NCBI RefSeq assembly: GCF_014203835.1
Contig: NZ_JACHJW010000001.1
Coordinates: forward strand, 2,926,501 to 2,990,500
Length of the DNA stretch: 64,000 nucleotides
Direction of reading: 5' to 3'
DNA from: Micromonospora polyrhachis
GTDB lineage: Bacteria; Actinomycetota; Actinomycetes; Mycobacteriales; Micromonosporaceae
The notes beneath the pieces were generated by a model. That model did no database searches. It was not told where the DNA came from and saw only the letters and a list, made by a program, of their open reading frames with translations. The position numbers and the translations under genes are program-made. Shown here piece after piece: positions 13,765-23,796 of this stretch (within the stretch, counting starts at the first letter, position 1; every line of letters begins with the position of its first letter).

Positions 13765-14055
13765 TCAGGTGGTCGTCGTGTTCTCCGGGGCTGCCGCTGT
13801 GTTGTCCGGGGCTGCCGTCGGCTCGGCCCACCCCGTCTCGGCGTGACTGGGTGCCCGGAACCCGATCAGCTTGTGTGTGCCGTCGCAGAAGGGCTTGATG
13901 CCGGACTTCCCGCAGCGGCAGAGCGCGACCACCTGTCGATCGACGGTAATCTGCTCGCCCTGCGGCGTACGCAGGACGAAGTGTCCGCGCAGTAGCAGTG
14001 GGCCGTCTTCGTAGAACGTCACGGTCGGATCGGCGTCAGCATCGTTGGCCACCAC
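13765..14055 (-). CDS. CDGSH iron-sulfur domain protein
   Basis: This 96-residue protein carries the mitoNEET-type 2Fe-2S signature CRCGKSGIKPFCDGTH (Cys, Cys, Cys and His ligands) at about residues 46-61. The preceding beta-strands (GPLLLRGHFVLRTPQGEQI) complete the usual small fold. A GTG start follows GGAGGG. Residues after 70 are Thr/Ala-rich and likely disordered. Family members transfer electrons or clusters. The gene converges on the glycosyltransferase/diiron-oxidase pair and probably belongs to the same pathway, though no function is established by the sequence. Confidence 0.88.
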   Translation of the reverse strand: MVANDADADPTVTFYEDGPLLLRGHFVLRTPQGEQITVDRQVVALCRCGKSGIKPFCDGTHKLIGFRAPSHAETGWAEPTAAPDNTAAAPENTTTT

Positions 14056-15399: not shown

Positions 15400-16329
15400 A
15401 TGTCCGGCCAGCTGGGGCTGTCCCACCTCGCGCACGGCGGATCAGGCTCGCCGATGTCGGACCTGATCGACCTGGTCGTGGTCGTGCTGGCCCTGGCCGC
15501 GACACTGCTCCACCTCTCCGGTGCCCGCCGGCTCCGCACCAGCGACCGGGGCCGCCGTGAACTCCCGCCGTGGCGGTCCGCCGCCTTCGCGGTCGGCACC
15601 CTCGTCGGGCTGGTGAGCGTGTCCGCCCCGATGGAGCATCTGGCCGAGGAGCTGTTCTCGGCACACATGGCCCAACACCTGCTGCTCTCGTTCGTCTGCG
15701 CACCGCTGGTCGTACTCGGCCGGCCCGCCGTCGTGTTCGCGGTCGCCCTCGGTCACCGGTACGCCCGGGTCGTCCGCCCGCTGCGTCGGCTGGCCGTACG
15801 GACGCGGGGCCGGAGCAGCGCACTGGTCGTACTCGCCGCGCTGCACATCGTCCCGTGGCTGTGTTGGCACGTGCCCGCCAGCTACGACCTCGCGGTCCGG
15901 CTCCCCGTCGTACACGTCGTCGAACACGTCACCCTGGTGCTGTCGGGAATGGTCCTGATCTGGCTGGTCCTCGGGCGGGTCCCGACCGCGCCGGCGTTCG
16001 CCCTGCTGTTGACGGGGATGGCAACGATGGGGGCGCTGGCGGCCGTGCTGGCCTTCGGCACAGTCCCGCTCTACACCGGACACACCCCACAGGTGTGGGA
16101 CCTCACCGCACTGGAGGACCAGCAACTCGGCGGAGCGTTGATGTGGTTCCCCGGTTCCCTGGCCTACGTGGTAGCCGTCGTCGCGCTGGTGTACGCCCGG
16201 TTGCTACGCCCCCGCGCCGCGCTACCCGACCGGCAGTCGCCGGCACCACCCCGGGAGCCGACCGCACCACCCGACCGGGACGTGGCCGCCTACCCGACCG
16301 GCCAGCCGCATCACCGGCCGTACAGGTAG
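15400..16329 (+). CDS. ctaG: Cytochrome c oxidase assembly protein, caa3_CtaG family
   Basis: The 309-residue protein has seven or eight membrane segments and the CtaG family landmarks: a His-rich loop EHLAEELFSAHMAQHLLLSF near 76-95, a Trp/His cluster ALHIVPWLCWHVPASYD near 148, VVEHVTLVLSG near 178, and DQQLGGALMWFPGSLAYV near 245. CtaG proteins help insert copper into the oxidase. This fits the caa3 oxidase genes lying convergent just downstream. The stop overlaps the end of the cytochrome c gene on the other strand by 19 bases. The Pro-rich C-terminus (PAPPREPTAPPDRD) is cytoplasmic or disordered. Confidence 0.88.
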   Translation: MSGQLGLSHLAHGGSGSPMSDLIDLVVVVLALAATLLHLSGARRLRTSDRGRRELPPWRSAAFAVGTLVGLVSVSAPMEHLAEELFSAHMAQHLLLSFVCAPLVVLGRPAVVFAVALGHRYARVVRPLRRLAVRTRGRSSALVVLAALHIVPWLCWHVPASYDLAVRLPVVHVVEHVTLVLSGMVLIWLVLGRVPTAPAFALLLTGMATMGALAAVLAFGTVPLYTGHTPQVWDLTALEDQQLGGALMWFPGSLAYVVAVVALVYARLLRPRAALPDRQSPAPPREPTAPPDRDVAAYPTGQPHHRPYR

Positions 16330-16691
16330 GCAGCCATGTCCCGGGCGTCCTGCTCGGTGACACCGAGATCGGGCATCAACGTCCCCGGCTCGACCGCCTG
16401 TGGATGCTGTAACCACCCGACCAGTTCCTCCGGCCGGTTCGGCACCTGGCCGGCGATGTACAACCGCTCGGCGAAGTCGTCGAGATCGGGCCCCACGCCC
16501 CGGCTCACACTCGGCACCCCCGGTACGGCATGGCAGGAGGTACAGCCGTAGTGGATGATCCGCTCCCGACCCCGCCCGGGATCACCGTTCACCACCGGGG
16601 CCGTCGGCTGGTCCCCGGCGCAACCAGTGAGGGCCGCGAACGCGCCGACACACAGGACCGCCACGGCGACCGGAACGAGACGGTTGCTCAC
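16311..16691 (-). CDS. Cytochrome c lipoprotein (class I, single haem)
   Basis: A GTG start overlapping the upstream TGA (GTGA) gives 126 residues. Residues 1-23 are a signal ending in the lipobox LTGC, so the mature protein should be lipid-anchored outside the membrane. The haem motif CTSCH is at about 50-54, and the distal methionine is likely in GTLMPDLGV near 105. It is the last gene of the oxidase operon and would shuttle electrons toward the caa3 oxidase or serve as an extra subunit. A longer open frame upstream is only the shadow of the neighbouring gene. Confidence 0.88.
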   Translation of the reverse strand: MSNRLVPVAVAVLCVGAFAALTGCAGDQPTAPVVNGDPGRGRERIIHYGCTSCHAVPGVPSVSRGVGPDLDDFAERLYIAGQVPNRPEELVGWLQHPQAVEPGTLMPDLGVTEQDARDMAAYLYGR

Positions 16692-17104
16692 CCGCACACC
16701 TCCACGACGAACTGCGGCCAGGCGATGAGGACGATGCCGAAACCGAACACCACCGCCAGGCCGGCACCGACGTAGCCCAGGAAGACCAGCGGCGAACGCC
16801 GCCCCCGCCCGATCCGGCGGGCCACGACGAACCCGGCGATCCCGGCCAGGACCGTCACCAGGAACAGGACCGCGTTCAGCACGGTCAGGACAGCGAAGAT
16901 CGCCCCCTCCGGGGGCGGCTCGGCGACGCTGCCGTACGCCGAACAGGTGAAGTCCTGGATCGCATAGGACAGCGCGAGCGACAGCGCCCACGCGACCGGT
17001 GGCACCAGCAGGGCAGCGACGGCCAGTCGGGTGCGCTGGGCATCCCGGTCCAGTGCCCGGGTCGACCCACCCGACACCGGGCCAGTGCCTCGACTCGCCG
17101 TCAT
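16688..17104 (-). CDS. Four-helix membrane protein of the oxidase operon
   Basis: The 138-residue product has four hydrophobic segments (about 28-50, 68-92, 93-101 with preceding turn, and 108-135). Its ATG comes two bases after the CtaD stop and its own stop overlaps the cytochrome c start. The position between subunit I/III and cytochrome c, and its size, suggest an accessory or subunit-IV-like component of the oxidase. No metal-binding motif is visible apart from one cysteine in the loop (FTCSAYG) and one at the C-terminus (VEVCG). The role is inferred from context only. Confidence 0.75.
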   Translation of the reverse strand: MTASRGTGPVSGGSTRALDRDAQRTRLAVAALLVPPVAWALSLALSYAIQDFTCSAYGSVAEPPPEGAIFAVLTVLNAVLFLVTVLAGIAGFVVARRIGRGRRSPLVFLGYVGAGLAVVFGFGIVLIAWPQFVVEVCG

Positions 17105-17105
17105 C

Positions 17106-19625
17106 TCAACCCACCAGCACCGGCAGCAGATCGGTCGTCGCCCAGGTGACCAGCCAGGTGAACAGGGCGGCCCCCCAGATCAGGGCCGCACCCTGGAGCA
17201 GATTGGCCGGTCGGCTGTCCCGGACGTGCCGCCACCGGCCGAGCAGGGCGACGGCGCTACTGGCCACCCCCACCAGCACGATCAACGTCTGGGCACCGAG
17301 CAGGGTCACCGCGATCGAGTCGTACGCGTGCCGCACCGGCCGAATGTCACTACCGAACCAGATGGCGAGGGTCACGGCCAGCGCCACCGTACCCGCGGCG
17401 AGCGCGACCAGCGCGGCCGTGACGTGGGCGGACCGCTCGTGTGGATCGCCGGGCCCGGGGCCGTCGGTCCGGCGGCGGCGTGCGCCCCACCGGGTCGCGG
17501 CGGTCGCCAGCACGAGCGCCACCGTCACCCCGAGTGCCGACAGCGGCCGGTCCAGCCGCCCGTCCCCCGGCCAGGCCACCGCGTTGACCTGGAGATACAG
17601 GGCGCTGAAGGCCAGGGTCACGACGGCGACCACCCCGACCATCGCCGCGCCGGCCGCGCCCCACCAGGTGATCGACCGGCTGCCGGGGGCCTCGAACGGA
17701 AACTGCCCGGTCAGGGGTACGGCCTGCTGGTCGGTGTGCTCGGCCTCGTTGCGCAACGCCCAGCCCACCAGTCCGGCGAGCACCACCGCGATCCCCAGGG
17801 CCGGCACCGGCCACCACTGCACCAGCATCCCGACGGCGATGACCGCCAGGCCCACCGCCGGTACGAGGGGCCAACCGGTGGACGTCGCCAGCCGGGCCGC
17901 ACCCTCGGGTTCGGCCCAGAGGGCGGTGGTCAGTGGCGAGGCACGGAAGTCCGCCGGGCGCCGGAGGAACGCCTGTCGTACCGGCGCGTGGAGTTCGTCG
18001 GGTGGCGGCGAGTCCCAGTTGGGCTGGCGACTGGTCACGACCGGGATGTCGGGAAAGTTCTCCGGCGGGGGTGGGGAAGCCGTCGCCCACTCCAGGGTGT
18101 CGCCCCGCCACGGGTCGGCCGGTGCCCGCCGCCCCCGGACCAGGGACCAGGCGAACGCCACGGTGAGGACGACCACCCCGCTGGCCAGGACGAACGCCCC
18201 CACGGTGGAGATCAGGTTGACCGTACCGATGCCCAACTCACGCTCGTAGGTGTAGACCCGACGGGGCATCCCCCACAGGCCGGTGAGGTGCATGGGGAAA
18301 AACGTCACGTGGAACCCGACGAAGACCAGCCAGAAACTGACGTGGCCGAGACGGTCGTCCAGGAGTCGACCGGTGATCTTCGGCCACCAGTGGTAGAGCC
18401 CGGCGAAGACGGGGAACAGCATGCCGCCGAGCACCACGTAGTGGAAGTGGGCCACGACGAAGTAGGTGTCGTGCACCTGCCCGTCGAACGGCACCGAGGC
18501 GACCATCACCCCGGTGATGCCCCCGGCGACGAAGGTCACCAGGAAGCCCAGCGAGTAGAGCATCGGCACCGAGAACCGGGGGCGGCCGGCCAGCAGGGTG
18601 GCGATCCACGCGAAGACCTGTAGGCCGCTGGCGAGGGTGATGGTCATGCTGGCCGCGGTGAAGAAGGAGAGGGTCAGCGGCGGCAGCCCGACGGTGTACA
18701 TGTGGTGGACCCACAGCCCGAGGCTCATCACGGCGGTCACCACGATCGCGAGCACCACCAGGGGGTACGCCACCAGCGGCCGACGGCAGTAGACCGGGAT
18801 GACGTGGCTGACGATGGCGCTGCCGGGCAGGAACATCACGTAGACCTCGGGATGACCGAAGATCCAGAAGAGGTGCTGCCACAGCAGCGGGTCGCCGCCC
18901 CGGACCGGATCGAAGAACGCGCTGCCCACCACCCGGTCCAGCTCCAGCAGGACCGACGCCACGATCAGCGGGATGAAGGCCACGATGATGAGGAAGGCCA
19001 CCGCCAGCATCGCCCAGGCGAAGATCGGCATTCGGTTCAGCGTCATCCCGGGGGCCCGCATCTTCAGGACGGCCACGCTGATCTCGATGGCGGCTCCGAC
19101 CGCGGCCAGTTCGGCGAGGGTGAGGCCGAAGAGCCAGAAGTCCATCGCCTTGCCCGCGAAGTCGGGGCCGCTGAGCGGGACGTAGGCGTACCAGCCGGCG
19201 TCCGGCACCATCGCCACCAGGAAGCTGCTGTAGAGGATCAGGCCGCCGAAGAGGTAGCACCAGTAGTTGAAGACGTTGTAGCGCGGGAACGGCATGTCCC
19301 GGGCACCGAGGTGCAGCGGCAGCAGATAGGTCGCCAGCCCCTCCAGGAACGGGATGGCGAACAGGAACATCATCGTGGTGCCGTGCATGGTGAAGAGCTC
19401 GTTGTAGCTCTGCGGGTCGAGCACGTCGCTCTCCGGACGGGCCAACTGCACCCGCATCACCAGGGCCTCGACGCCGCCGACCAGGAACAGCACGAACGCG
19501 GTCAGCATGTAGCGAATGCCGACGCTCTTGTGGTTGACCTGGGTGAAGAAGCCCTTCAACCCGGGCGGGTTGTCCCAGGTCCGGGTGAACCGGTCGGCGT
19601 GCGAAGCCTCGACGGTGTCCACCAC
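17106..19625 (-). CDS. ctaD: Cytochrome c oxidase subunit I fused to a subunit III-like domain
   Basis: This 839-residue protein contains a complete haem-copper oxidase subunit I in its first 560 residues. The haem a His is in NELFTMHGTTMMFLF. The CuB ligands are in FGHPEVYVMFLPG and WVHHMYTVG, and the paired haem ligands in VVAHFHYVVLGG. Residues about 590-839 add six or seven membrane segments resembling subunit III, so the gene is a I+III fusion of the kind known in caa3/ba3 oxidases. It terminates O2 respiration and pumps protons. The start is a GTG (GTG-GTG pair) four bases after the CtaC stop. It is the central gene of an operon of seven. Confidence 0.94.
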   Translation of the reverse strand: MVDTVEASHADRFTRTWDNPPGLKGFFTQVNHKSVGIRYMLTAFVLFLVGGVEALVMRVQLARPESDVLDPQSYNELFTMHGTTMMFLFAIPFLEGLATYLLPLHLGARDMPFPRYNVFNYWCYLFGGLILYSSFLVAMVPDAGWYAYVPLSGPDFAGKAMDFWLFGLTLAELAAVGAAIEISVAVLKMRAPGMTLNRMPIFAWAMLAVAFLIIVAFIPLIVASVLLELDRVVGSAFFDPVRGGDPLLWQHLFWIFGHPEVYVMFLPGSAIVSHVIPVYCRRPLVAYPLVVLAIVVTAVMSLGLWVHHMYTVGLPPLTLSFFTAASMTITLASGLQVFAWIATLLAGRPRFSVPMLYSLGFLVTFVAGGITGVMVASVPFDGQVHDTYFVVAHFHYVVLGGMLFPVFAGLYHWWPKITGRLLDDRLGHVSFWLVFVGFHVTFFPMHLTGLWGMPRRVYTYERELGIGTVNLISTVGAFVLASGVVVLTVAFAWSLVRGRRAPADPWRGDTLEWATASPPPPENFPDIPVVTSRQPNWDSPPPDELHAPVRQAFLRRPADFRASPLTTALWAEPEGAARLATSTGWPLVPAVGLAVIAVGMLVQWWPVPALGIAVVLAGLVGWALRNEAEHTDQQAVPLTGQFPFEAPGSRSITWWGAAGAAMVGVVAVVTLAFSALYLQVNAVAWPGDGRLDRPLSALGVTVALVLATAATRWGARRRRTDGPGPGDPHERSAHVTAALVALAAGTVALAVTLAIWFGSDIRPVRHAYDSIAVTLLGAQTLIVLVGVASSAVALLGRWRHVRDSRPANLLQGAALIWGAALFTWLVTWATTDLLPVLVG

Positions 19626-19629
19626 GGCG

Positions 19630-20649
19630 CTACTCCAGGCTCTCCAGATACGCGAGCAGTGCCTGTAGCTCGTCGCCGTCGATGTCGGTACCGGGCATCC
19701 GGTTGCCGGGTTTGAGCGATTGCGGGTCGACGATCCAGCCGGCCAGGTTGCCCCGGTCGTTGGCGAGGATGCCGGCGGCGAGCGTGTCCCGGCTGGCCAG
19801 GTGGGTGAGGTTCGGTCCGGCCCGGCCGGTGGCGGCGGTGCCGGCGACGGTGTGGCAGTACACGCAGGACGACGAGAGGAAGACCTCCCGGCCCCGGGCG
19901 ACCAGCGGGTCCTCGTCGCCGTCCGGTTGCCCCGGTACGGCCAACTGCTGCCGGGTCCACTCCGCGAACGCGGCGGGTTCGTGGGCGATCACGACGATCC
20001 GCATGTTCGCGTGCTGGATTCCGCAGAACTCGGCGCACTGGCCCCAGTAGGTGCCGGGCCGGTCGGTCTCCAGCCAGATCGTGTTGGACCGGCCGGGAAT
20101 GAGGTCGATCTTGCCGCTCAGCTCGGGCACCCAGAAGCTGTGGATGACGTCGGCGGAGTTGAGCTGCACCGCGACCCGCTCGCCGACCGGCATGTGGATC
20201 TCGTTGGCGGTGACCACCCCGCTGGCCGGGTAACGGATCTCCCACCAGTACTGGTGACCGGTCAACTCGACCACGATGCCGTCACCGGCGTCGCGCGGGT
20301 CGATGTCCCGCAGTACCAGGGTGGACTGCACCGTCAGCCCGAGGATGACGACGGCCGGTACGACCGCACCCGCCAGGGTGACGTAGAGCGTGGCCCGCCG
20401 GGGCGTACCGGCCTTCTGGCGGTTGCGCCGGACCAGGGCGACCACGATGACCGCCGTCACCACCACCCAGACGATCGACCCGAGCACCAGCATCGTGCGC
20501 CACAGTCCGTCGACCGCCTCAGCCCGGCTGCCCTTCGGCGACAGCGCCGACTGCTGCCGTTCCGCCGCCGCACAGCCGGCCAGCGCCAGCGTGCCCGCCG
20601 ACGCCAGCCACCACCCGTACCGCCGCAGCCGGCGGCGTCGCCCGCTCAT
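19630..20649 (-). CDS. ctaC: Cytochrome c oxidase subunit II with fused cytochrome c (caa3 type)
   Basis: The ATG at 20649 overlaps the cupredoxin stop (ATGA) and gives 339 residues. It starts with a signal and lipobox (LALAGCAAA). Two membrane helices follow at about 50-72 and 85-107, then a CuA domain with GHQYWWEIRYP, DVIHSFWVPEL and the CuA ligands in CAEFCGIQHANM. From about 250 a cytochrome c domain follows with CVYCH and a Met ligand region GNRMPGTDI. This fusion defines the caa3 type: electrons reach CuA through its own haem c, so a soluble cytochrome or cupredoxin can be the direct donor. Confidence 0.93.
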   Translation of the reverse strand: MSGRRRRLRRYGWWLASAGTLALAGCAAAERQQSALSPKGSRAEAVDGLWRTMLVLGSIVWVVVTAVIVVALVRRNRQKAGTPRRATLYVTLAGAVVPAVVILGLTVQSTLVLRDIDPRDAGDGIVVELTGHQYWWEIRYPASGVVTANEIHMPVGERVAVQLNSADVIHSFWVPELSGKIDLIPGRSNTIWLETDRPGTYWGQCAEFCGIQHANMRIVVIAHEPAAFAEWTRQQLAVPGQPDGDEDPLVARGREVFLSSSCVYCHTVAGTAATGRAGPNLTHLASRDTLAAGILANDRGNLAGWIVDPQSLKPGNRMPGTDIDGDELQALLAYLESLE

Positions 20650-21035
20650 GGCGCCGCCACCCGCACCGTGCCGACCATCTGTTCCGCCTGGTGCTCCGGG
20701 CACCAGTAGAGGTAGGTCCCCTCGATGTCGAACCGGTGGGCGAAGGTCTCCCCGGGACGCACCGGCCCGGAGTCCCAGCCCACAGCCGTGCCGGGCACCG
20801 CCGGCGTACCCGCGATGGTCCTGTCCTGGCTGGTCACGGTGTGCGCGAAGGCGTCGTCGTTGGTCCAGCGGACCTCGGTGCCCGGTGCGACCACCAGGGT
20901 CGCCGGGTCGAAGCCGTCGGCGTTGATCCGCACCACGACGACCTCGGCCCGAGCCCGGTCGGCACAGCCGGAGAGCAGCACCAGCGCGGGTACCGTCGCG
21001 GCCAGCGCCAGGACCGAGCCGTACGGTCGTCTCAT
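20646..21035 (-). CDS. Cupredoxin lipoprotein (type I copper protein)
   Basis: The 129-residue product starts at the ATG overlapping the flavoprotein stop. A signal with lipobox LLSGCA ends near residue 24. The mature part is a cupredoxin/plastocyanin-like beta sandwich. The first copper His is in AFAHTVTSQD (about 73), and the Cys-His-Met group lies in YWCPEHQAEQM (about 113-123). It should carry single electrons outside the membrane. Its location between a flavin dehydrogenase and the CuA subunit suggests it links the two; this is inference from gene order. Confidence 0.88.
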   Translation of the reverse strand: MRRPYGSVLALAATVPALVLLSGCADRARAEVVVVRINADGFDPATLVVAPGTEVRWTNDDAFAHTVTSQDRTIAGTPAVPGTAVGWDSGPVRPGETFAHRFDIEGTYLYWCPEHQAEQMVGTVRVAAP

Positions 21036-22810
21036 GTGAGCAGCTCGCCGGGGGCGGAGAAGTAGCGGTCGCGCAGCGTCTCGGCGGTACGGATCGCAAG
21101 CGCCCCGACCGTGCCACTCGGGTTGGCTCCGGGGTTCTGCGGAAACAACGCGGCCCCGGTGACGAAGACGTTCGGGGTGTCCCAGACCTGGCCATAGCTG
21201 TTGGTGACACTGTTGCCCGGATCGGTGCCCATGATCGCCCCACCGGTGGCGTGCGTGCTCTGATACTCGTCGATGCGATACGGCGGTAGCTCCGGCTGGA
21301 CGGCCATTCGGTCCGGTCGCATCGCCCGCATGATCTCGACGCAACGGGCAGCCAGGAACCGGTACATCCTCCGCTCGTTCTCCATCCAGTCGAAAGTGAT
21401 CCGCAGCAGGGGTAGGCCCCAGGCGTCGGTGTAGGTGGGGTCCAGGTCGCAGAAGTTGCCGGTGTAGGCCGGGCTCTCGCCCTCGGTGTTGATCCCGCCC
21501 ACGCTGTCCCACGACCGGCCGAGCATGGCCTTCCACTCCGCCCCCCACTGCCGGTCGGTGAGGTCCTCCAGCAGGGTGCCGACCGAGGTGACCGGGTCCC
21601 GCTGGCCCGCCTCCGCAAAGAGCGCCGCCCCACCGACGAAGTCCAGGTCGGAGTGGTCGAAGACGTCGCCGTTGTAGTCGTAGATCTGGGGGACGGTGCA
21701 GCCGTTGCCCATGAAGAAGTTGAATCGGGTGTTCTCCCAGAGCCCCTTCACCGGGGTCTGCTCCAACTGGTAGGTGTAGTTGCGGCCGACCAGTCCCCGG
21801 TCGTTGCCGATCCCCTGCGGATGCTTGTCGCTCCGGGCAAGCAGCAGGTTGCGGACGTTCTCCAGGGAGTACGCCGAGGCGATCACCACCTCGGCGGGCT
21901 GGAAGTGCTCTCCGCCCTGTGCATCCACATAGGTCACACCGGTCGCCCGGCCGTCGGTGGCGGTGTCGATCCGTACCACGTGGCACCGGGTCCGCACCTC
22001 GTACCGGTCGGTGGCCAGCGCCACCGGCAGCCAGGTGGTCAGCGGGCTGGCCTTGGCCCCGACCTCACACCCGAACCGGGTGCAGAAACCGCAGTACAGG
22101 CAGCCGGCCCGGACGTTGCCGTACGGATCCGTCCAGCCCCGGGACAGCAGCCCGGACGGGGTCGGGAAAGGATGCAGGTCCCGCTCGGAGCAGGCCTGGC
22201 CGAAGAGTTTGCCGAACGCGCTGTCCGCCATCGGCGGGTTCGGGTACGGCCGCTGCCGGGGCCCCTCGAACGGGTTCCCGCCGGGCAGAATCCGTCCGCC
22301 CAGGTTCCCGGCCAGACCCGATACGCCGATGTCGTACTCGAACGCGTCGTAGTACGGCTCCAACTCGGCGTAGTCGACCGGCCAGTCCCGGACGGTCATC
22401 TCCGCCGGAATCCGGTCCGCCCCGTACCGCTCGACATGGTGGCTGCGATATTTGAAGTCGGTGGGCAGGAACCGCCAGGTCAGTCCAGTCCAGTGCACCA
22501 GGGATCCGCCCAGGCCCTGCCCGGGGTGGAACGATCCGTACTGCCGCATGGGCAGGGCGGGAGCCGAGGCATTCGGTCGCCAGGTCCACGACAACTTCGA
22601 CAGGTCCTGCATCATGGCGAACCGCTGGGAGTAGCGCAGACTGTCATGGTTGTGGGCGAAGTCGGGATAGGTCCACTGCGCCGGACCCTGCTCGATCGAC
22701 ACCATCCGATGACCGGTCTCCGGCAGCACCCGCGCCGCGAGGATCGACGCGGTCATCCCGGCACCGATGGTGACGATCTCGACCGGCGAATGTCGGCGTA
22801 CGGTGGTCAT
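21032..22810 (-). CDS. GMC-family flavin dehydrogenase with cysteine cluster
   Basis: This 592-residue protein belongs to the glucose-methanol-choline oxidoreductases. It has an FAD-binding beta-alpha-beta start (IVTIGAGMTASILAARVLP), the GGSLVHWTG FAD loop near 100, and the C-terminal catalytic region with HATGGAIMG and NPGANPSGTVGALAI. A cluster CLYCGFCTRFGC at about 240-251 recalls the iron-sulfur motif of gluconate 2-dehydrogenase-type and FAD-glucose dehydrogenase catalytic subunits. It lacks its own signal, so it is probably exported bound to the Tat-signal partner encoded just upstream. The substrate (sugar, polyol or other alcohol) is unknown. It overlaps both neighbours by four bases. 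Confidence 0.88.
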   Translation of the reverse strand: MTTVRRHSPVEIVTIGAGMTASILAARVLPETGHRMVSIEQGPAQWTYPDFAHNHDSLRYSQRFAMMQDLSKLSWTWRPNASAPALPMRQYGSFHPGQGLGGSLVHWTGLTWRFLPTDFKYRSHHVERYGADRIPAEMTVRDWPVDYAELEPYYDAFEYDIGVSGLAGNLGGRILPGGNPFEGPRQRPYPNPPMADSAFGKLFGQACSERDLHPFPTPSGLLSRGWTDPYGNVRAGCLYCGFCTRFGCEVGAKASPLTTWLPVALATDRYEVRTRCHVVRIDTATDGRATGVTYVDAQGGEHFQPAEVVIASAYSLENVRNLLLARSDKHPQGIGNDRGLVGRNYTYQLEQTPVKGLWENTRFNFFMGNGCTVPQIYDYNGDVFDHSDLDFVGGAALFAEAGQRDPVTSVGTLLEDLTDRQWGAEWKAMLGRSWDSVGGINTEGESPAYTGNFCDLDPTYTDAWGLPLLRITFDWMENERRMYRFLAARCVEIMRAMRPDRMAVQPELPPYRIDEYQSTHATGGAIMGTDPGNSVTNSYGQVWDTPNVFVTGAALFPQNPGANPSGTVGALAIRTAETLRDRYFSAPGELLT

Positions 22811-23796
22811 CCGTCTCGGACCCCAGCCCGGGGCTGCTCCACGGCCTCCGGTCCGTGTTGGTGCCGCCGGTCCGGGTTCATGGCCGGCAGCCCATCCAGG
22901 GCCTGCGGCTGGCGGCGGGCCCCGACCAACATCTCCTCCGGCGAGTACGCGCGCTGCGGCCCCGGGTAACCGACCAGGTTCCAGCCGACCAGGCCACGGT
23001 TCCCGCCGTACGCCGGGTCGGCGAACATGCCCTCGATGGTGTCGGTACGCACCATCGTGAAGAACTCGCCCGGGTCCACCTCGCCGAAGTCGGCCTCGAC
23101 GGCGTCCAACTCGGCCTCCTCCGGCCGGGCCGGACCAGCCTCTTCGGCCGGGGTGCTGCCGCTCTCCTCGCTCTGCTCGCCCTCACTGCGCTGCTGCACC
23201 GCGTCCAACGCGTCCAGTACCGCGTCCTGGTCGGCCTCGGTCAACTCGACGAAGGGCACGCCGAACCGCCGTCGGGCGTACCGGTCGAGGCCGGGCAGAC
23301 CGTTGCGGTACGCCTCCTGCGGGGTGACGCCGGACTGGTAGCCGTACCGGTAGAGCTGGTCCTCCGGCACGGGTACGGCGTCCACCGACGCTGGGGGCGG
23401 TGTGCCCGCGTAGCCCTCGGCAAAGGGCGGGGTCAGGAAGGTCGGTTCGGCGAACGCCTTGAATTCGGCGAGCTTGGCGTCGATGTACGTCACCACAGCG
23501 GCTTCCCGCGCACCCGGGTCCCGCGCGTCGCCGGGAATGATCCGGGCGGTCACCGCCTCGACCGTGCGGGCCTCGACCTCGGTGAAGAACGCCAGGACGC
23601 CGGTGGGGGTGTGGGCTGGTGGGACCGGGTGGCGTAACGGCGCGTCGACGTTCTGTTCGGCCGGGACGGTCACCTGCGACGAGGAGGTGCACGCCACCAG
23701 AGCCGTACCGCCGAGCAGGGATCCGGCGCGCAGGAGGGCCCGCCGGGAGACGAGCCCTGGGCGGTCGTTGGCGTGCACTGTCTGCTTGTCCGCCAC
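22807..23796 (-). CDS. Gluconate 2-dehydrogenase subunit 3-like Tat lipoprotein
   Basis: I place the start at GTG 23796, which gives 329 residues beginning with a textbook Tat lipoprotein signal (VSRRALLRAGSLLGGTALVAC). ATG codons at 23868-23853 are possible but would bury the signal. The mature region begins with a subunit-3-like helical part (FFTEVEARTVEAVTARIIPG) and has an acidic low-complexity insert (SEGEQSEESGSTPAEEAG). Family members form the small chaperone-like subunit that is co-exported with the GMC flavoprotein. It is the first gene of the oxidase operon and overlaps the next by four bases. The divergent ltrA starts 128 bases away. Confidence 0.8.
   Translation of the reverse strand: MADKQTVHANDRPGLVSRRALLRAGSLLGGTALVACTSSSQVTVPAEQNVDAPLRHPVPPAHTPTGVLAFFTEVEARTVEAVTARIIPGDARDPGAREAAVVTYIDAKLAEFKAFAEPTFLTPPFAEGYAGTPPPASVDAVPVPEDQLYRYGYQSGVTPQEAYRNGLPGLDRYARRRFGVPFVELTEADQDAVLDALDAVQQRSEGEQSEESGSTPAEEAGPARPEEAELDAVEADFGEVDPGEFFTMVRTDTIEGMFADPAYGGNRGLVGWNLVGYPGPQRAYSPEEMLVGARRQPQALDGLPAMNPDRRHQHGPEAVEQPRAGVRDG

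Follow-up and report, generated by a model that had tools for sequence, protein, structure and literature searches.

A GMC flavoprotein and caa3 oxidase operon in Micromonospora polyrhachis, a probable respiratory branch independent of quinone and the bc complex

Results and discussion

The stretch of the Micromonospora polyrhachis genome that we analysed (64,000 nucleotides, hereafter the window) carries on its minus strand a seven-gene operon (16311–23796) that combines a flavin dehydrogenase of the GMC family with a caa3-type oxidase. We think it fairly likely that this operon couples an exported flavoenzyme to an oxidase of its own, with electrons reaching O2 without the help of quinone and the bc complex. 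The open-access literature yielded no published description of the operon, an absence that is weak evidence of novelty, and nothing relevant on clusters of GMC with caa3 genes or on gluconate dehydrogenase clusters.

A compact seven-gene operon

Pfam and NCBIfam profiles assigned six of the seven operon proteins to families. The first gene (22807–23796, with a GTG start) encodes a gluconate 2-dehydrogenase subunit 3 family protein, a gamma subunit of the hitch-hiker type (PF13618, 3e-31) that is present as a sole copy in the genome. It is followed by the GMC flavoprotein, which is the catalytic subunit (21032–22810; GMC_oxred_C, 4e-20), a plastocyanin-like lipo-cupredoxin (20646–21035; Copper-bind, 6e-11), CoxB with CuA and a C-terminal cytochrome c (19630–20649; COX2, 5e-23; Cytochrom_C, 2e-11), CoxA with a divergent subunit III-like C-terminal domain (17106–19625; COX1, 2e-148; above the CtaD_CoxA cut-off), a small membrane protein (16688–17104) and a lipoprotein monohaem cytochrome c with homologues in related loci (16311–16691; Cytochrom_C, 3e-05). 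The small membrane protein had no match in Pfam or NCBIfam and its family is unnamed; alignment with its homologues showed that it is kept in both kinds of caa3 cluster, GMC-linked and bc-linked. Four-base overlaps join the genes at 22807–22810, 21032–21035, 20646–20649 and 16688–16691, and the remaining gaps measure 4 bases (CoxB/CoxA) and 1 base (CoxA/small membrane protein). The preliminary description of seven tightly packed genes is therefore borne out by both the junctions and the family profiles. On the plus strand, the gene for CtaG, a caa3-type oxidase assembly factor (15400–16329; PF09678, 1.4e-42), converges with the operon and overlaps its end by 19 bases; CtaG homologues lie close to many of the related operons. 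Elsewhere in the window, a minus-strand gene (13765–14055) encodes a small protein whose CRCGKSGIKPFCDGTH stretch recalls CDGSH iron-sulfur proteins; it had no NCBIfam hit at 1e-10.

Distribution and origin of the operon

Conservation of the gene order had been proposed as a check on the operon. The set does recur, with its order largely kept, in Micrococcales, Aeromicrobium, a distant actinobacterial genus and Thermomicrobiota, and its recurrence in several lineages argues that the operon is not due to chance. Close relatives (71–78% identity) were found in Microbacteriaceae, Micrococcaceae, Promicromonosporaceae and Nocardioidaceae, and further ones in one distant actinobacterial genus and in Thermomicrobiota/Chloroflexota bins. 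Wherever the contig reaches, these relatives encode subunit 3, GMC, cupredoxin, CoxB, CoxA and the small protein, in that order, with the exception of locus L027, in which the main parts are the same but rearranged. In Citricoccus and similar Micrococcales, genes for CcmC, CcmE and CcmF lie downstream of the GMC operon.

All GMC proteins more than about 50% identical to that of the window have adjoining caa3 genes wherever the contig reaches (L016–L024, L026, L027 and L061–L063), and no caa3 genes were found within roughly 8–10 kb on each side, less at contig ends, of GMC/subunit 3 pairs at 35–41% identity. GMC relatives without an oxidase are common, and oxidase linkage is specific to one clade. 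One of the oxidase-linked operons contains two tandem GMC genes (L061:9983–13554). In the CoxA tree, a branch supported at 100/99 sets apart the GMC-linked sequences, accompanied by four rows that have no GMC gene within reach, and the window sequence groups inside an 11-row Micrococcales/Aeromicrobium set (100/100). Within the window's own family, Micromonosporaceae, the GMC gene occurs in just one of 300 genomes (E 1e-100). This scarcity of the module, together with the nesting of its CoxA among other families, suggests as the simplest reading that the operon was probably acquired horizontally.

The dehydrogenase and its export

The GMC protein had been described as Tat-exported. It bears no Tat signal of its own, since in the window and in the oxidase-linked homologues examined it opens directly on the FAD-binding strand, with no preceding signal peptide. 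The signal sits on subunit 3, whose sequence contains a twin-arginine motif (SRRALLR) and a lipobox (LVAC), both present in most homologues, and by these signals subunit 3 is a predicted exported lipoprotein. The gamma subunit of the Burkholderia glucose dehydrogenase is known to be a Tat hitch-hiker (PMC6719666), so that export of the GMC protein is best read as hitch-hiking; by analogy, it very likely leaves the cytoplasm on subunit 3.

The enzymes closest to the GMC protein, by sequence as well as by fold, are fructose dehydrogenase and FAD glucose dehydrogenase, with which it shares just 22–24% identity. Its AlphaFold model (pLDDT 83.7) had these two enzymes as top structural matches (Z about 37), and several of the next-best matches were oxidases. 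Across 25 aligned sequences, the catalytic His520/Asn563 pair is invariant, and nearly invariant is His106, which corresponds to the FAD-linked His of glucose dehydrogenase. The protein also has a cysteine motif, CxxCxxCx4C, at about 237–248, which differs in spacing from Cys212, 213, 218 and 222 of BcGDH. It is invariant in the 15 rows of the oxidase-linked clade (among them L025, whose contig is too short to reach the oxidase); a few distant relatives keep it and others do not. These four conserved cysteines probably hold an Fe-S cluster, and their retention in the oxidase-linked clade and loss in some other GMC proteins fit a cluster that is needed when electrons exit the protein. In glucose dehydrogenase, a 3Fe-4S cluster hands electrons to the cytochrome c subunit (PMC6719666).

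The same data bear on the idea that the operon co-regulates two separate activities, a GMC enzyme that uses another acceptor or O2 and an oxidase fed by a general cytochrome c. Some GMC enzymes are indeed oxidases, as are several of the next-best structural matches. Nevertheless, both halves are linked across several families and two phyla, and the cysteine motif of an electron-transferring dehydrogenase is retained throughout the linked clade, whereas some of the unlinked relatives no longer have it, so that we regard this explanation as very improbable.

The module resembles two FAD dehydrogenase complexes of the direct-electron-transfer type, fructose dehydrogenase from Gluconobacter japonicus and FAD glucose dehydrogenase from Burkholderia cepacia, in its GMC catalytic subunit with grouped cysteines that may hold a cluster, its His/Asn pair and FAD-linked His position, and its small subunit with a Tat signal. 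It departs from them not only in cysteine spacing but also in the missing trihaem cytochrome c subunit, the place of which is taken here by the caa3 oxidase, the cupredoxin and a monohaem cytochrome. In fact, neither the window nor the GMC-linked loci checked contain any multihaem ORF, only the monohaem CoxB and cytochrome c.

The sugar or alcohol substrate initially attributed to the enzyme is a guess made at the level of the GMC family. Two more specific identities were rejected: the score for MftG was weak and far below the curated NCBIfam cut-off, and that for choline dehydrogenase was also far below its cut-off. The neighbouring genes were likewise discarded as a guide to the substrate: only one genus has an oligopeptide-type ABC transporter upstream, and we recognised no counterpart of it at the other loci inspected. 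In that position L061 has genes of the size expected for such a transporter, whose families were identified in the related L062. Like the mycofactocin dehydrogenase MftG, the window protein is an actinobacterial GMC flavoprotein linked to respiration, but MftG acts on mycofactocin (PMC11778925).

The oxidase

CoxB scored above the cut-off of its model and has a CuA site (VIHS; CAEFCGIQHANM) and one haem c motif (CVYCH). The alignment of CoxA revealed normal A1-type haem and copper ligands, and the A1-type motif HPEVY. Among the residues that define A-type oxidases, namely Asp124/Glu278 in the D-channel and Lys354/Thr351 in the K-channel (PMC3084760), both D-channel residues are present (GARDM, GHPEVY), and the K-channel pair is replaced by Gln and Ser, respectively (SGLQ versus TG(I/V/M)K). 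Throughout the GMC-linked set, the K-channel lysine has given way to Gln, in the window protein and in the members from Micrococcales, Aeromicrobium and Thermomicrobiota, or to Ile, in the genus of L061–L063. We did not retain K-channel loss as a novelty because such variants and repeated losses are already known in family A oxidases (PMC8239418) and because the bc-linked caa3 of the same genome likewise has Gln at this position; on these alignments, it is a trait of a wider clade. Two other actinobacterial CoxA homologues (L092 and L093) have HPVVY or HPLVY for HPEVY and are devoid of both the D-channel glutamate and the K-channel lysine.

As for a possible fusion of subunits I and III, the C-terminal 200 residues of CoxA resemble COX3-like proteins by HHalign profile comparison only (E 1.6e-9 to the separate subunit III of L027), and this domain is too divergent to give a Pfam COX3 match. 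The caa3 oxidase of Thermus thermophilus is of the A2 type. The window enzyme shares with it (2yev) the fusion of cytochrome c to subunit II, a caa3-type CtaG and, putatively, the I+III fusion, and differs in having the A1 glutamate in helix VI (HPEVY), Gln in the K-channel and a GMC dehydrogenase as input.

Electron carriers lost in related operons

The cupredoxin had been listed among the parts of the proposed chain. In our ligand alignment of 16 cupredoxins from GMC-linked clusters, the window protein has all its type-1 copper ligands (His, Cys, His and Met), as do six others (L020, L061–L063, L027 and L029). One cupredoxin is without the Met ligand (L024), and in eight the copper cysteine is gone (L016–L019, L021–L023 and L026) while the rest of the operon is kept. 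A strict chain, in which electrons could cross from GMC to CuA solely by way of the cupredoxin, much as methylamine dehydrogenase depends on amicyanin, could draw on the intact ligands in the window, Citricoccus, the distant actinobacterial genus and Thermomicrobiota, and on the presence of the cupredoxin in GMC-linked clusters and its absence from the bc-linked one. However, with half of the homologous operons having lost the copper cysteine, the family works without that residue. The cupredoxin is thus not an obligatory carrier, which makes the strict chain quite unlikely; the protein may have a structural role or be what remains of a carrier.

The lipo-cytochrome c, with an LTGC lipobox and a CTSCH haem motif, tells a similar story. 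When used as a query, in six of the eight systems with Cys-less cupredoxins (L016, L019, L021, L022, L023 and L026) it had a single hit per genome, the haem domain of CoxB, and no second genome-wide match; it is absent solely in systems whose copper site is already lost. Because these six lineages have neither a copper-binding cupredoxin nor the lipo-cytochrome, the haem c of CoxB is the only operon-encoded entry for electrons between GMC and O2, a situation that points to direct contact or to the use of an unrelated cytochrome. The loss of carriers in several relatives suggests that dehydrogenase and oxidase can touch directly. We tentatively entertain, at somewhat less than even chances, a carrier-free supercomplex in which the GMC Fe-S flavoprotein would dock on CoxB and pass electrons straight to haem c. 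Such an assembly would be, in effect, an energy-conserving substrate:O2 oxidoreductase, for which the cupredoxin and the lipo-cytochrome, lost in some lineages, would be dispensable.

A putative route from substrate to oxygen

What the sequences establish directly is which genes are present, how they are conserved and linked, which residues can bind cofactors and which carriers the relatives have lost; on this basis, for an exported flavoenzyme coupled to its own oxidase, the reading that we favour, we infer the following route. While still in the cytoplasm, the GMC protein would take up FAD and probably an Fe-S cluster, held by its four cysteines, as it folds, and would bind to subunit 3. The pair would then be exported by the Tat system and kept at the membrane by the lipoprotein anchor, where GMC would oxidise an alcohol or sugar. 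Electrons would pass from FAD through the Fe-S cluster to the haem c of CoxB, either directly or via the lipo-cytochrome c or the cupredoxin where their metal sites are kept, and from there through CuA and haem a to haem a3-CuB, where O2 would be reduced. Quinone and the bc complex would be skipped.

A chain of this kind on the outer face had been proposed in the preliminary description, and our results uphold it in part. It is supported by the linkage across families, by the sister caa3 oxidase that the same genome ties to a bc complex instead, and by the operon itself, in which neither a multihaem cytochrome nor cytochrome b, NrfD or any further quinone-reactive subunit was found; the obligatory cupredoxin and the GMC protein with its own Tat signal did not stand. 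Gene linkage reflects co-inheritance and is not proof of electron transfer, and other cytochromes could serve as carriers.

In the opposite scheme, the dehydrogenase would reduce menaquinone and electrons would reach the oxidase via the bc complex, the operon merely co-regulating both. All 13 host genomes tested, as well as the window genome, have a bc complex, and certain GMC enzymes are presumed to pass their electrons to quinone (PMC11778925). Yet this scheme is hard to reconcile with an operon without any quinone-reactive subunit, with the presence of bc genes in several related caa3 clusters but not in the GMC-linked ones, and with an oxidase linkage confined to one clade among GMC relatives, so that we consider it unlikely. 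Since the hosts keep their bc complex, the operon would add a branch and not replace the main chain.

Related oxidases with other input modules

The genome has five COX1 genes: two actinobacterial aa3, that of the window, a distant one and another caa3 (L038). An 808-residue protein (L039:5227–7653), which overlaps the weakest COX1 match of the genome and had no NCBIfam name at 1e-10, is possibly an enzyme of the nitric oxide reductase type. The L038 cluster (L038:153–12290, at about 6,987,150–6,999,290 of the genome contig) encodes caa3 followed by COX3, the small membrane protein, CtaG, a lipo-cytochrome c and QcrC-QcrA-QcrB, with divergent CcmC and CcmF and a CcmE-sized gene between them. 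Its CoxB with haem c, COX3, small membrane protein, CtaG and lipo-cytochrome c recall the window operon, and its CoxA belongs to a sister clade. Unlike the window operon, L038 is tied to QcrC-QcrA-QcrB and CcmC/E/F and has no GMC, subunit 3 or cupredoxin. The CoxA of L038 carries HPDVY (Glu278 to Asp) together with Gln for the K-channel lysine.

Related caa3 clusters of other actinobacteria are also linked to QcrCAB (L104 and L109–L112). Another (L103:11386–17178) adjoins a molybdopterin oxidoreductase/Fe-S/NrfD-type set, with an MFS transporter gene in between, and some have nothing recognisable nearby. As the oxidase unit is shared and found with QcrCAB, with GMC or with the molybdopterin/NrfD set, it looks as if the input module had been swapped.

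Methanol and methylamine dehydrogenases deliver electrons at the level of cytochrome c or cupredoxin. The proposed route would resemble their chains, and that of the Thermus sulfite oxidoreductase, in oxidising the substrate outside the membrane and bypassing the bc complex, but the enzyme families differ. To our knowledge, none of those chains has a terminal oxidase in the same operon. The Thermus sulfite oxidoreductase exemplifies a dehydrogenase chain that enters the oxidase at the cytochrome c level (PMC3561395).

If our favoured reading is true, this operon would provide a naturally occurring example of a flavin dehydrogenase equipped with a terminal oxidase of its own, and contact between the two could readily be tested in the lineages devoid of the carriers. 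Such enzymes could also interest biosensor work, as the glucose relative of the GMC protein is already in use there (PMC9727119). More generally, the occurrence of one oxidase framework with bc, with GMC or, at one locus, beside a molybdopterin/NrfD set suggests that respiratory chains may rewire by exchanging their input.
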